Shown here piece after piece: positions 3,101 through 51,436 of a DNA stretch of 64,000 nt. The notes beneath the pieces were generated by a model. The model made no database searches and was not told the DNA's origin. It was given only the letters and a program-made list of their open reading frames with translations. The DNA is from Clavelina lepadiformis. Lineage: Eukaryota; Chordata; Ascidiacea; Aplousobranchia; Clavelinidae. The stretch lies in the NCBI RefSeq assembly GCF_947623445.1, contig NC_135245.1:1681501-1745500 (forward strand). Reading direction: 5' to 3'. A program made the position numbers and the translations under genes. The first letter of the stretch is position 1, and each line of letters opens with the position of its first letter.

Positions 3101-5174
3101 TTCCACCTGTGCAACTAAAGTAAGAAAAGATAGTTAAAACACTTGCATGCTTCTTTTAGATATTTGGTTTCATATTGCAAAGGTACAATAACATTTTGAT
3201 TAATTTGATACCAATCAATTAACACATAATTTGCAAATACTAATTATGAAAAAAGCAAAGAAAACTTATGCTAGCGGATTATGCCATTCTTGACACCGAG
3301 CATATTTTTTAATCAAAAATTAATAACATTACACAATAATAGAAACAAAGTTAATACATACAATAATAACCAGAAAATCAAAATTAAAAAGGGGGATTTT
3401 GCATTGGATTTACAAGAAAAAAGATACAAGTTCTTTGCACATATTGGCTGTAACGACAAGTAAGTTGAAAGTCAGAAAAACCCTTGATTTTGATTTAAAA
3501 CTCTTAAGTCAACAAGAAATTGAGATTGTCATAGTTTCGTAACCATTACAATGTTCAACGTGTTGAGACTTGAGCTGATGTTATACGCCGTCCACTCAAT
3601 GAAACCTTAAAACACAAGGAAAGTTGCCACGACAAACAAGCACCATTGACGCACATAGCTGGCCACATTCAGATCACGGCTAATATTTGCACAGTCCAAT
3701 TATGACTTATCCTTAGTACAAGGAAACTTTTTGTTTGCATACTTGTCATTCTCGATGATGAATTCGAAGATCCATTGGTTAATACGTATAAATTATATAA
3801 TCCTTGTGTTTTTGATATTATTTTATGATTCTTAAGACCAAAATATATTTCACAACAAAATTTAAAAATTCCTGGAAATCATCAAAATTTGTATAGTGCA
3901 GGCATACTGTGAAGCAATGATTGTTAATATATGGCAAACAAAAATAAAACAACGTCAATGTTATTATAAAAACTAGTGCAAAGAAACCTTGCATTTATGA
4001 AAGACGAAAAATGTAATCAGGAATCACACAATAGCAGCCAGAATGATTTATAAGTTTAGTTGTGGAACACTCCCAACCAGTGTGACAACAAACAGAAAAC
4101 ATCATAGAAGAAAATCAACCGCATAAACGCAGAAGACATTCGAACAATATAAATTGTCATAAATATGTGTGACCAAACAAAAAGAAATTCTGTTGATTTG
4201 TGTTTGGTTGGTAGTCTTAGAAATGGTCTTTTATCACTTCTCACACAATAGGACAATTCATGGCAATGTACACAATACCACTGACAATGGAGGGTTATCT
4301 AAGGATCAAGTTAAACAGAGAGAATCTCTGACTTGAAACCTTGAACTGGAAGGAAAAACTTTAAAATTTTGAATCTAACACATTTCTAATTGCAATATGA
4401 TAAAAAAAAATTTTAAACAATAATTGGAGTACAGTAAATAATTTTAAGAACAAAAATTGCAGTTTAACACTAAGAAATTACTATTTCATAGATATATATA
4501 ACTACAACATAAAACACAACTAAAAAAATGATGTTGTCATTTAGTAAAAACTCCACGCAGAAAATCACATCTTTAGTTTGTTTAATGAAACAGAATATCT
4601 TAACACTTACTAATATCCGGTCGGACACTGAACGCATATTCCACTTTCATAATATGTTCCCGGGGAGCAAATAGTTCCTGAAAAAACAATTTGACTATGA
4701 TAAGACAACAATAAAATCGACAAGTATTATAACTATTCCATTAATAAAACAAAGGTGGCCGTCTTCACCGTAAAACAGTTAATAAGTTGGATACAAGTAG
4801 CACCCATCAGGTGAAAAAAAATTTATAACAACACAGTTAAATTTTTCCAATGCTTAAAATGGCATTTTTAATTTTAACTAAAGATGGAAAGTAATTGTTT
4901 GTAAACAAAATTATACACAACAAAACAAAAATGAGAATTCTGATAAAGCATATATATTGCTTGAAAGTAGATTTTCCTTGAGGTTTAATGAAAACAAGTT
5001 ATATGAAGTAAATGCATTCGCGCTAGCTATTAACAGTTTAAAAAACAAAATATACAAACTTGAACACGTACCGGATACAAAATGAACTTGCAGAAATAGC
5101 ATGCATCCAAATATAAACCATAGTTGGAAGCTTTTCTTGTAGCTTCCCATAAAATTCTTCATTTTCAATGTCAT
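151..5174 (-). CDS. Secreted cysteine-rich GCC2/GCC3 (ephrin-receptor-like) repeat protein, 5' part
   Basis: Ten coding exons read leftward: 5174-5072, 4677-4611, 3114-3024, 2666-2444, 2312-2139, 1805-1640, 1390-1269, 1047-937, 773-699 and 291-151. All have GT-AG borders and their phases chain without a break, giving about 424 residues before the last donor (GT at 150-149); the gene continues off the left edge. The first exon encodes a hydrophobic signal peptide (core FQLWFIFGCMLFLQVHF) ending near VSG. The rest is a chain of cysteine modules of the type C-x2-CPAGYSC, each followed by a GTY/GTF turn, as in GCC2/GCC3 or ephrin-receptor-like modules of extracellular proteins such as SCUBE. No transmembrane segment is visible in this part. 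Most exon junctions are phase 1, which favours module shuffling. A secreted or cell-surface role is inferred; the ligand is unknown. The start Met at 5174 was chosen because it is the first in frame; in-frame Mets follow a few codons later. Confidence 0.85.
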
Positions 5175-43563: not shown

Positions 43564-45920
43564 ATACAGTTGTTAATTGACGCTTCACTCTCAGGCAGTC
43601 GCCCTCTATATAAATTGTTTACGTTATACCTCATACGATCAGAAACAAAGGGTGCGTTTTATCACTTCTACGCTGGTTTCTTGCAGCAATTTTTAGACTT
43701 GTTTTATCCACAATAAGCAAAATCTACCACATCACCCCTGTACAACGCGTGTACTGCTCGTGCAATTTTTATTTTCTCTTTTAATGTTTTAAAAGTTCAT
43801 TTTTTTCTTTTTTAGCGTGCTGGAAATTACTTAGTATTGTACTTCACTAGTTCTTTATACACATTAATGCTCCGCTGTGTGTGCAAGGGCGGACTTGGCA
43901 AAGAGTGCTTTTATTATTACGAATAATTTAAACAGTTTCTCATTGTGTCATAAGTTCCAAAAGTGGGTGCTCTGCTCATAGTCTTTTTGTGCTAGTATTT
44001 TTTTGTTGGAGTTGCTTCTACTACCTATCAGTGCGCAAAAATACTATTATTGCTCCGAGTTTATAACGTTACGTAAGCGCTGGAATACGTGACACTTTTC
44101 AGCCGAGAGAAGTTATATTCTCAGATTTTTGCCCACAAAAACTACCAATATTTGAAATTATTTAAATGTTTGTCTCCAACCTATGATACAATTACGGAAC
44201 CGCAGTAAATGGCACTGGCACTAAATGCTAAGCAGCTTTCACGAAAACTTGTTCAGCGTAGAGCCCTAATTTATTTCTTTGTTATAATTTTTGCATGAAA
44301 TATTGGACAGCATTTTTAGAAATAAAGTTTCAGACCTTGCAGTCATTTGACGCCCGCCTATTGCATAGTAATTCCCCATTCTTCAATTTTCGCTTACCTT
44401 TTTCTCACCGAAAACTGTCGGTGGACAGGAAACTTAGGAATCGAACTACGTTAGCTTTTTGCACTACATTTTCTTGGTTCTGAAGCTTTGTGGTTGATAT
44501 GTGCACTTTTTTTGTGTAACAGGTGAATAAAATTTGTAAGCTTTGCAAGTGCTGCAGTTTCATTTGACGTCAACGTTAATTAGGAAAACGTTAAGGACTA
44601 AAAAGTTTAGTGGAATGTAAATGAATGTTGGAAGTTTAAGAAAAGCTGTAGCGGTTGGCGTCCTGCCACTAACAGAACACAACGTGGGTTTGGTGGCCAC
44701 GCCAACCTACCATTTGAAAGCACAATTCTATTAATTGCTGTCTTGAAGGTTTTAAGCAATTATACTTACCACTTTTTCCTGCTCCTTAATTGTCCATGAG
44801 CACGTGCTTTATTGTGCTGTAATCACAACGGTAAGCAACTTAACTTTCGCTCTGCACTGTTAACGACAAAAAATATAAACAGTAAAATACAACATCAATG
44901 ATAACGTCATAAGCATGCGATGTCGCTTTGCAGACAGAAATAGTTAACTCAAACAGTCAAATTTAGCTGTGTACGTGGGCAGATCTCCTTAACCGTGATT
45001 CGATGCATAGCTGTTGATGGCTTAGTGTTGACTTACCACTTAACAGCTAAACATTTTTGCTTGTCCATTCGTGTAAATGGTATGTTTTTTAAGATATCGC
45101 TAAAAGCTATCGGGATCGGGATGAATTGATCACTGACCAGACGAATTACAAAATCGAATACAGTAGGCCACCAAAGACAACAGATGAACAACAAACTGCA
45201 AAAATACAGTCGTATGCAACAATGCGCACTTAAATTGTATGAAATATTCTGGTTTCATCCTAATTTTTTTCCGGCTGCCGTATTTGTTCCTGGCATTGTG
45301 ATGTAATAATGTTGCATGAGTCAGAGTAACTGTTCTAGTAAAAAAATTATTTTCCTTGTGGGTTTGTAAGTTTTGTTCTCTTATCTGCAAGTTAATTTTT
45401 AACCTACTAGTTTTTTCCAAAACCCGACGGCAATTTTCAAGATTTTTGAGCGAAAAATTAACGTGAAGCATGTACTAAATAGTGTATACCAAATGCTTTT
45501 TCGAACTTCGTCAGGAGAATATTATTTCTGAAACCGGAGAAATTCAATATTAAGATATAAAGTATACATGATAAAAATGTCATGAAAATATTTGTACCGC
45601 ATTACAGTGCGTCGCTTTTGGGACTGAAGCCGCGTGCTTTGGACGTTGACGAACATTAAGAAACTTTCCTGTCAAAAAGGAAACATTTGACCTTGCTACT
45701 AGCTCTCTTACTCTCTGACAATACGCTTAGTATAATAATTTAATCGAAAATAATTAATATAGATTGAACTGTTGTTTCTTCGAGGAGACACATTTCTGCT
45801 TTTGGATTCTATGATTCTGCCAAAATTTTGTCAGAATAACGGTGGTACAAACAAGCAGACTAAGGCCAGTTAACTTTGATTTGCCAATAGGAGAGTTTAA
45901 GTCTTTAAGAGATCAGTGTA
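43564..45920. other. 3' UTR of the NPAS-type gene, then intergenic DNA
   Basis: A polyadenylation signal AATAAA at 44526-44531 is followed by a GT-rich tail, so the 3' UTR is probably about 1 kb. From 44.6 to 45.9 kb no gene was recognised; the antisense ORF at 45130-45471 has no domain. Confidence 0.5.
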
Positions 45921-46099
45921 CAAGGCTGCCACTCGTAGGGATTTTACCCTACGGTAGGGTTTTTTGGCCCCTTGTAGGGTGTAGGGTGACCCTACGGGTT
46001 TTTCACGTTTACTCATAGATTTCCTTTTGTTTAAAGTAAAATAAAAATAAATTCAAATAATAAATTTACTGAATAATGACAAGAACATAGTCTAAACCA

Positions 46100-46357
46100 G
46101 GGGTGGCCAAACTGCGGCTCTTTAATGAATTAGCATTGTTGAATTAGACATGCATTTTCCCGGTCTAGACGAGTTGTTTGATCAGATTATGAAACAATGC
46201 GTTCTATCACATGTAGTAACAATGGACACTTTAGTTAAGTAAATTGTCAGATTGAAGCTGTACGTCAGGGCTGACCTAGTTTTAAGCCTTGGTTGTGGTT
46301 ATAGTAATAATTGTAAATTGCAAAAAGAGTTGGAGAAGCCCAGCAGGTGGAGACTGG
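46100..46357. mobile_element. Left half of a hAT MITE, nested in the composite element
   Basis: Starts CAGGGGTGGCCAAACTGCGG and follows the element at 50922-51436 for about 260 bases through AAAAAGAGTTGG and GGTGGAGACT, with internal length differences, then diverges. The matching right end is absent, so it was truncated or rearranged. Confidence 0.8.
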
Positions 46358-46539
46358 AGAGTGAGACAGCAGATGAGCAGAATCAGCAGATTGAGCAGAC
46401 AGGAATCAAGTGATCTTGTTTTGTAGATTTACGACTTTGTGTTGCGCGCGGTGGTCCGAAGTGGTCCGTGTGATCAAAATGTTTGCTTTGAACTTTATGA
46501 AGCGATCTTATATCAAAGATAGTCATATCCACCAACTTA

Positions 46540-46896
46540 ATGTTGACGACAGCTCCCGCTGGCCTTCTATCCAAGAGGTTTTTTCCAGGCTTGATGGCAA
46601 GTGACACAATCAAAAAATTGCTACCTCATCAGAAAGAAAGTTTCTTGGAAAGATGTAGGGAATGGTATAGGCCTAGGGAGGCAGTGAAGCAATTATATCA
46701 AAGGATCAATTTAGATGACCCTGTACTCCAATCTCTTTCGCATTTGAAACCATCTGCTATTGTTAACGAAACTTCTTCAATCACTGCTGCAGCCACGATT
46801 GCTAGTGGACTTCCTTGCATTACAACTATGCTCAATGTTAATGCACAGCAGATTGACCGACAATTGTGTGCCAATAGAAGCAATTCGGCTATGTAA
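46540..46896 (+). pseudogene. Possible transposase-derived coding fragment
   Basis: A 118-codon open frame includes ASDTIKKLLPHQKESFLERC and REAVKQLYQRINLDDPVLQ followed by SLSHLKPSAI. The pattern (a conserved acidic/leucine segment ending in DPVLxxLSxLxP) recalls the C-terminal part of hAT-type transposase-related proteins. This is recognition by style only and not a firm family match. It lies between the nested MITE and the reverse-transcriptase frame, which overlaps its end in another frame. Confidence 0.35.
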
Positions 46897-47818
46897 TGTG
46901 GAGAGCATCCTAGCAAAGATTGGTAAAGGTATGATGAATGGGGAGGGAATGCCTGCAAGTTGGAGAAAGAGTGTGTTGGTTCCTTTGTACAAAGGAAAGG
47001 GAGATGTGAAGGAATGTACCAGTTATAGAAGCTTGAAAATGCTTGAACATGCAATGAAGGTTTTGGAAAGAGTTTTCGAGGATCGAATTCGTGAGAGAGT
47101 TGAAATTAGTGAAATCCAAATGGGTTTTATGCCAGAAAAAGGTACAGTTGATGCCATGTTTGCTGTGAGACAATTGATAGAGAAATACGAAAAGGTTGAG
47201 AAGGAGCTGTATTTCGTGTTTGTTGATCTGGAGAAGGCCTTTGACCGTGTTCCCAGAGAAGTGATTTGGTGGGCTTTGAGGAAGAAAGGTGTGATGGAAC
47301 CAGAAGTTAGAGCGGTGATGGAGATGTATAAGGAAGCTGAGACATCTGTGAAACTCGAAGGCGAAATGTCAGAATGGTTTAAGGTAGAAGTGGGGGTCCA
47401 CCAGGGTTCAGTGATAAGCCCATTGCTTTTCGTAATTGTTATGGATACTCTGACACATGATTTGGAAACAACAATGGAAGAGTTCTTGTATGCTGACGAT
47501 TTAGTTCTCGTAGGAGATAGCTGGAAAGAGGTGGAGGTGAAGTTTGTTAGATGGAAAAGCGCACTGGAAAGCAAAGGTTTGAAGGTGAACATCAATAAAA
47601 CCAAAGCGATGAGAATTGGTAGAAAATCGTCGAAGGGAGTAGTCAGTACTGTTGATCCATGCGCAATTTGTGGGAAGAGAGTAGGGAGAAATTCCATTCA
47701 ATGCAGAAAGTGCAAGTATTGGGTGCATAAGAGATGTTCAGGTATCAATGGAAGGCTGACGAGTGGAATGAATTACGATAACCCTGGTGGTTTATATTCT
47801 GACTTAGTTGTTGATTAG
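46760..47818 (+). CDS. LINE (non-LTR) reverse transcriptase, 5'-truncated, with C-terminal PHD-like zinc motif
   Basis: The frame runs 352 codons, but recognisable RT sequence starts near 46.9 kb. Seen in order: fingers (LVPLYKGKGDVKECTSYR), palm motif A with FVDLEKAFDRVPRE, motif B (VGVHQGSVISPLLFVIVMD), the catalytic YADDLVLVGD box, and thumb-proximal GLKVNINKTKAM. The C terminus carries CAICGKRVGRN then CRKCKYWVHKRCSGI, a Cys4-His-Cys PHD/RING-like zinc pattern found in several invertebrate LINE ORF2 proteins. The endonuclease domain and most of the RT0/N-terminal region are missing. It normally copies element RNA at a nicked target. The catalytic YADD is intact, but the truncation makes self-mobility unlikely. 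Confidence 0.88.
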   Translation: MLTKLLQSLLQPRLLVDFLALQLCSMLMHSRLTDNCVPIEAIRLCNVESILAKIGKGMMNGEGMPASWRKSVLVPLYKGKGDVKECTSYRSLKMLEHAMKVLERVFEDRIRERVEISEIQMGFMPEKGTVDAMFAVRQLIEKYEKVEKELYFVFVDLEKAFDRVPREVIWWALRKKGVMEPEVRAVMEMYKEAETSVKLEGEMSEWFKVEVGVHQGSVISPLLFVIVMDTLTHDLETTMEEFLYADDLVLVGDSWKEVEVKFVRWKSALESKGLKVNINKTKAMRIGRKSSKGVVSTVDPCAICGKRVGRNSIQCRKCKYWVHKRCSGINGRLTSGMNYDNPGGLYSDLVVD

Positions 47819-48082
47819 AAGCACCAAAGAATGTTATCTGCTATTGCTCTTGTTATAAATTCAACATTACTGATATATTCAATTAGTGGAAACACAAACG
47901 TCAGTAAATGTTGAACTACTTTAGTTCTGGTGCTTTTGAACTGAAACTAAAGTAGTTATAAAGTGCTATAAAACTGCCAAAATTTCTTTTTTTTTATTCA
48001 AACTGCGTAGGGAGATGTAGGGTTTTTTTAGGTGTGCTGGTAGGGTTAATTTCTTTTTTTGAGTGGCAACACTGTCAGTGTA

Positions 48083-50921: not shown

Positions 50922-51436
50922 CAGGGGTGGCCAAACTGCGGCTCTTTGAGCCTTTAATTGCGGCTCTTTGAGCCTTTAATTGCGGCTCTTTAATGAATTT
51001 GCATTGTTGAATTAGACATACATTTTCCCGGTCTAGACGAGTTGTTTGATCAGATTATGAAACAATGCGTTCTATCACACGTAGTAACGATGGACTCATT
51101 GTTAGTAATAATCAAATTACACTCCAAAAAGGACATTATTGTACAGAAGTGTGCTAACTTGTACACTGTAGTTAAGTAAACTGTCAGTTTGAAGCTGTAC
51201 CTCAGGGCTGACCTAGTTTTAAGTCTCGGTTACGGTTACACTAATAATTGCAAAAAGAGTTGGTGAAGCCCAGGTGGAGACTCATAGTATCACCACGCAG
51301 CACTAATGTTTATCAATAGCTACACTTCGTTGCGAGTGAATAAATTCGTATTTTTTATTGTGTTTGTGTTGCGGCTCTTTTAAAGCTCGAATTGGTAATA
51401 TGCGGCTCGAGCATGAAGCAGGTCTGACCACCCCTG
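50922..51436. mobile_element. hAT-like MITE with 8-bp TSD gtatagac
   Basis: The 515-bp element starts CAGGGGTGGCCAAACTGCGG and ends GACCACCCCTG. Perfect direct 8-mer GTATAGAC on both sides (50914-50921 and 51437-51444). Near the left end the phrase TGCGGCTCTTTGAGCCTTTAA is locally triplicated. It is the full-length relative of the truncated copy at 46100. Confidence 0.95.

Follow-up and report, generated by a model that had tools for sequence, protein, structure and literature searches.

Animal Pack-TIRs are terminal-inverted-repeat (TIR) transposons that contain foreign filler DNA, with microhomology at many of their breakpoints (median 2 bp), and their multicopy class, which shows target-site duplications (TSDs), includes for example Pack-hAT-N8_XT of the western clawed frog (PMC8277862). 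The pipeline of that survey required a best parental hit above any other and dropped parents with transposable elements (TEs) in the flanking 100 bp (PMC8277862). In mammals, a SINE V-domain has been spread by amplification of the MER6 DNA transposon (PMC6887750). Furthermore, plant Pack-TYPE transposons are described as non-autonomous DNA transposons that capture and move host coding DNA (PMC8903248), and the maize Ds elements, likewise non-autonomous, have one class formed by internal deletion of the autonomous element (PMC3260210). The tunicate element described here resembles the Pack-TYPE elements in capturing and moving other DNA and the deleted Ds class in its origin from a longer element, and it differs from both plant systems in carrying a LINE fragment.

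The window is the whole 64-kb stretch of DNA that was analysed (C6:1681501-1745500), and positions are given within it unless a locus is named. It holds a composite hAT unit of 2,154 bp at 45921-48074, the parts of which are listed below with reference to L032, a full-length relative, and L042, a copy of the source LINE.

45913-45920, no strand: left target-site duplication TCAGTGTA, abutting the element directly
45921-45936, plus strand: left terminal inverted repeat CAAGGCTGCCACTCGT, common to family copies
45935-45995, plus strand: left subterminal GTAGGG/CCCTAC cluster, four forward and two reverse, putative transposase-binding repeats
46098-46317 (approximate), plus strand: segment of another interspersed repeat, beginning CAGGGGTGGCCAAACTGCGGCTC, also in L032
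46424-46455, no strand: scar left by an earlier internal loss of about 1.28 kb of transposase gene, now 32 bp with no match in L032
46456-46863, plus strand: remnant of the hAT transposase gene, 96% identical to L032
46748-47818, plus strand: open frame of 356 aa, with a start in hAT sequence, an RT core, a truncated PHD-like motif and a short hAT-derived tail
46864-47778, plus strand: cargo, a 915-bp internal fragment of an endonuclease-RT-PHD LINE, 98.7% identical to L042, replacing about 0.94 kb of hAT
47489-47500, plus strand: YADD codons of the reverse transcriptase (RT)
47660-47749, plus strand: PHD-like zinc motif, with the downstream Cys-rich stretch of the LINE (ECGRCKGC) cut off
47779-48074, plus strand: right part of the hAT, 98% identical to L032
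48007-48045, plus strand: right subterminal GTAGGG repeats, three in number
48059-48074, minus strand: right terminal inverted repeat (reverse complement CAGTGTTGCCACTCAA)
48075-48082, no strand: right target-site duplication TCAGTGTA, abutting the element directly

The sequence-only reading had described a perfect 8-bp duplication, inverted ends and GTAGGG subterminal repeats, and all three are present, the ends (CAAGGCTGCCACTC and CAGTGTTGCCACTC) as imperfect inverted repeats in which 11 of the first 16 positions are equal. GTAGGG or CCCTAC occurs 11 times in the element, compared with 20 times across the 64-kb window, and is clustered near both ends (six in the first 75 bp and three in the last 70 bp), and these subterminal repeats are putative transposase-binding sites. 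A perfect 13-bp inverted repeat with an 18-bp spacer lies near them in the right hAT part (47914-47957). Exact 8-bp TSDs are found at all four full composites, at the deleted derivative L012 and at six of nine other distinct family sites examined, the remaining three of the nine, including that of L032, being without an exact 8-bp duplication. As such, the 8-bp TSD, the short and imperfect TIRs and a related full-length copy with a hAT transposase place the element in the hAT superfamily.

The interior had also been read as holding half of an unrelated hAT MITE. A repeat segment is indeed present, but it is not peculiar to the composite: L032 has it in the corresponding position, so it was there before the RT block arrived. 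Genome-wide, the first 23 bases of the repeat are matched 910 times with up to three mismatches (471 forward and 439 reverse), compared with none for a reversed control, and no opposite end of this repeat of some 900 copies was found at up to three mismatches in four other loci compared. Elsewhere in the window, at 50922, there is a second exact copy of CAGGGGTGGCCAAACT, probably from the same repeat, which in L051-L054 adjoins self-similar DNA resembling tandem arrays with units of roughly 84 bp.

A search of the genome (209 Mb in 95 contigs) with the whole element gave at least 46 matches among the best 40 of 598 candidates scored. At least four are full-length composite copies with the same interior, namely E1 on C6 (the window copy), E2 on C4, E3 on C8 and E4 on C1, which are 99.1-100% identical to the window copy and differ from one another by 0.19-0.79% with gaps left uncounted. 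The same two cargo breakpoints are found at all four loci, and each copy is bounded by a different perfect 8-bp duplication (TCAGTGTA, ATTCTAAG, TTTCCAAC and GAGATAGT), which is the outcome that the sequence-only reading had expected among same-ended copies if the element had moved as a unit. A fifth copy, E5 on C3, is truncated and has lost an inner piece and the right end, and two identical 1,014-bp fragments of the composite, E6 and E7, lie on C1. The loci of the latter, L046 and L047 (G000:C1:3154000-3160500 and 3428500-3435000), form an inverted segmental duplication in repeat-rich DNA, and E6 and E7 were treated as a segmental pair and excluded from the insertion count. The right cargo junction is common to E5, E6 and E7 as well, among the best 40 of 93 candidates scored with a right-part probe.

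Empty sites were sought by joining the two flanks of an element with one target copy and comparing the result to paralogous loci. E2, E3 and E4 each have a repetitive left flank, and eight paralogous loci were compared. A single exact 8-bp target was present in all three loci for E2 and all three for E4; for E3 the 8 bp were exact in one of two loci, the other having two differences within them, and both E3 relatives are 75-79% identical overall. The left flank of the window copy E1 has no other match in the genome, and the empty-site comparison covers E2-E4. Segmental duplication of one locus was also considered as the source of the four copies and was ruled out, since the 1.5-kb flanks of the four full copies and the fifth share a single match at E≤1e-5, a weak one of 63 bp at 76% identity. 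Because four copies with the same interior have different TSDs, with empty sites for three of them, the composite moved as one unit, as first proposed, and it has been mobilised to at least four chromosomal sites.

The history of the hAT part can be read from its relatives. The full-length relative, at L032:10-3487 (G000:C3:9971509-9974986), has 3,478 bp and an uninterrupted 682-aa frame, in which Dimer_Tnp_hAT is matched at E=5.4e-4 with 20.1 bits, slightly below the curated cut-off of 21.4. Homologues of the protein, over up to 97% of its length, carry PF14291, PF27073 and in part PF05699, and L032 is a possible candidate for the source of transposase. The composite matches L032 at 1-549, 1834-2235 and 3177-3478. 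The first of the two gaps, at the scar, is also found in L012 and L015, both of them without RT, and the second holds the cargo, with about 0.94 kb of hAT gone, including the 3' end of the transposase gene. L012 is a deleted derivative with its own duplication, TCTTTAAT. No right end of L015 was found within the 3.9 kb examined, so this copy supports the older deletion only. A probe across the cargo site found 15 copies (all 15 candidates scored), of which ten match across the site and five stop at the cargo junction.

Other forms of the family were also seen. In L039, L040 and L043 a 1.4-kb deletion derivative joins L032 1-1247 to 3283-3478. By eye, at least 17 end pairs, including these three and L041, lie 1.34-1.44 kb apart among the best 40 of 187 and the best 40 of 55 candidates; they are not all one form, since at least three (C9:725042, C6:6773007 and C1:3044306) retain more of the right side. 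Moreover, NCBI lists an uncharacterised protein, LOC143458967, that matches 81% of the hAT transposase at 95% identity. A gene of this transposon, probably the copy L031 (G000:C5:9497500-9503000), thus seems to have been taken for one of the host in the annotation.

The RT frame with YADD and a zinc motif that had been reported from the letters alone was confirmed, with matches to RVT_1 at E=1.5e-31 and to a PHD-like zinc motif at E=1.3e-5. Judging from the coordinates, this 356-aa frame starts in hAT sequence in a reading frame different from that of the transposase. The parental source lies elsewhere in the genome, where LINE copies (for example L008-L011 and L013) align to exactly element positions 944-1858 and continue in both directions, so that the filler between the intact TIRs is foreign. 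In L042 the LINE frame is 1,073 aa long and shows matches to an endonuclease, an RT and a PHD-like motif, and both cargo ends fall inside this ORF, the right one about 0.74 kb before the end of the LINE. The cargo is without the LINE 5' part, the endonuclease, the 3' part and the tail, and it is without the C-terminal ~170 aa of the ORF. The frame is cut within the RT region, and the serine codon of KIGKAAGPS is where the cut falls. The source LINE is multicopy, and its copies nearest to the cargo, two of which tie, match it at 98.7% identity, which points to a donor family and singles out no one copy. In a midpoint-rooted tree, five copies of the cargo form a group distinct from seven of the LINE that left out the partial E6 and E7 (support 96/91; 98% of 200 bootstrap trees), and three of 500 label shuffles were as low as the observed cargo/LINE grouping. 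In addition, two bases are common to all seven cargo copies and absent from all seven LINEs compared. These patterns point to one origin of the cargo copies.

The sequence-only reading had left two possibilities, that a hAT element captured a retrotransposon piece and moved it or that later insertions nested inside it. Capture and movement is borne out by the four full copies with four TSDs and the empty sites for three of them. That a hAT already stood at the window site and a LINE was inserted afterwards has a negligible probability in our view: four loci share the same cargo and the same two breakpoints, the cargo is bounded on both sides by points internal to the LINE ORF, and the hAT has lost about 0.94 kb there. 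LINE copies end in a (GAT)n tail, with short target duplications seen by eye at several of the 17 copies compared; the RT block has neither the LINE tail nor, by eye, a flanking duplication. By comparison, where other stretches are inserted, in L033, L034, L037, L038 and L045, the hAT coordinates on the two sides overlap by 3-9 bp and nothing is lost at the site, the hAT losses of L037 and L038 lying away from the insertions. Same-ended copies without the RT block, which together with a separate short duplication around the RT would have spoken for nesting, do exist, as parent forms, but by eye no such duplication accompanies the RT. The four TSDs, together with the empty sites and with breakpoints internal to the LINE ORF, rule out simple nesting.

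The composite is very probably a non-autonomous hAT that works like the animal Pack-TIRs, by deletion, gain of a LINE piece and spread with passenger cargo. A full-length hAT such as L032 would have lost about 1.28 kb of transposase gene, giving the form of L012 and L015, and one copy of that type would have lost a further ~0.94 kb and gained the 915-bp internal stretch of LINE ORF, most probably by a template switch into a LINE copy while a hAT that had broken or stalled was under repair or replication. As the unit retained its two ends and its subterminal repeats, the transposase of intact relatives could move it in trans, and it now sits at no fewer than four sites, each with a new 8-bp duplication.

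For the entry of the cargo, template switching seems somewhat probable, and it accounts for the hAT loss and the LINE gain in one step. A plausible but less probable origin begins with a 5'-truncated LINE inserted at 46863 by target-primed reverse transcription; a deletion would then have taken away the final ~0.74 kb of the LINE with its tail, together with the target copy on the right and ~0.94 kb of the hAT, after which the unit was mobilised. Such 5'-truncated copies of the source LINE recur, one of them (L014) starting 31 bases from the left end of the cargo, and the LINE has the (GAT)n tail and, at several copies, the short target duplications. Internal deletions are likewise recurrent in the hAT family, and the hAT sequence before the junction, AGAT/TGACCGACAAT, might perhaps suit the LINE as a target. 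However, two events are required, and no intermediate was found among the 15 copies at the site; moreover, none of the five left-junction copies continues into the LINE 3' part (all 37 candidates scored). The two routes leave the same footprint and both fit, and the overlaps of the parents at the junctions, by eye one base on the left and two on the right, could easily be chance. Template switching is favoured over truncated insertion with deletion.

It was also suggested from the letters that the element might be an unusual cut-and-paste carrier of RT. That the carried RT is a working protein kept by selection, making the hAT a functional RT carrier, is very improbable. The cargo frame is open, at 356 aa, in two of the four full-length copies and is likewise open in the partial E5 and E6, with the RVT_1 core and YADD present, but the fragment has lost the endonuclease and the C-terminal part of the ORF, and a stop shared by E3 and E4 leaves a frame of 267 aa. 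Synonymous and nonsynonymous differences from L042 number 3/9 in E1, 3/10 in E2, 3/14 in E3, 4/15 in E4, 3/8 in E5 and 6/11 in both E6 and E7. On these small counts the nonsynonymous-to-synonymous ratios are 0.68-1.20 for E1-E5 and 0.47 for E6 and E7, compared with 0.15-0.78, also on small counts, among the seven LINE copies. With E6 and E7 at 0.47 and some LINE pairs at 0.77-0.78, cargo and LINE are not sharply distinguished by this test. Taken alone, E6 and E7 do not look neutral, on counts too small for a strong claim, and overall the counts do not clearly speak for selection acting on the cargo. From its structure and substitution pattern, the RT fragment looks like a passenger, and with the fragment incomplete and no clear constraint on it the idea of a working carrier is unsupported. 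A more speculative prospect, which we regard as very unlikely, is that this tunicate hAT family, after a single capture, serves as a multicopy vehicle of LINE coding sequence. Sense RT sequence, moved by the hAT to several places, could then be co-opted or could influence the LINE in return, for instance by giving rise to small RNAs.

Comparison with known systems places the composite closest to the animal Pack-TIRs and MER6. Like the Pack-TIRs, it has foreign filler, short junction overlaps and multiple TSD-bearing copies (PMC8277862), and its mobilisation after capture, as in their multicopy class, is seen in the four TSDs and the three copies with empty sites. Unlike what that survey required (PMC8277862), its parent is a multicopy LINE with no single best hit; the single-best-parent rule is a screening rule, not a mechanistic requirement, and the composite is accordingly classed as a hAT derivative that works like a Pack-TIR. 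A LINE cargo of this type would probably be missed by the published pipeline as described (PMC8277862). Similarly, in MER6 a retroelement-associated piece was spread by amplification of a DNA transposon, but there it is a SINE domain in mammals (PMC6887750), whereas here it is a LINE coding fragment in a hAT of a tunicate. Among literature titles and abstract openings, which give partial coverage, none described a LINE or RT fragment carried in a hAT or captured by such elements.

To summarize, this kind of capture is known; what is less usual is the cargo, a piece of LINE coding sequence within an animal hAT that is multicopy. The composite is a well-resolved animal case in which a DNA transposon gains a retrotransposon piece and spreads it. 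One assembly contains the full-length relative and the deleted intermediate, as well as the donor family and the composite with its TSDs and empty sites. Because screens for captured DNA that leave out parents flanked by TEs would generally pass over cases of this type, capture of one transposon by another may be undercounted.
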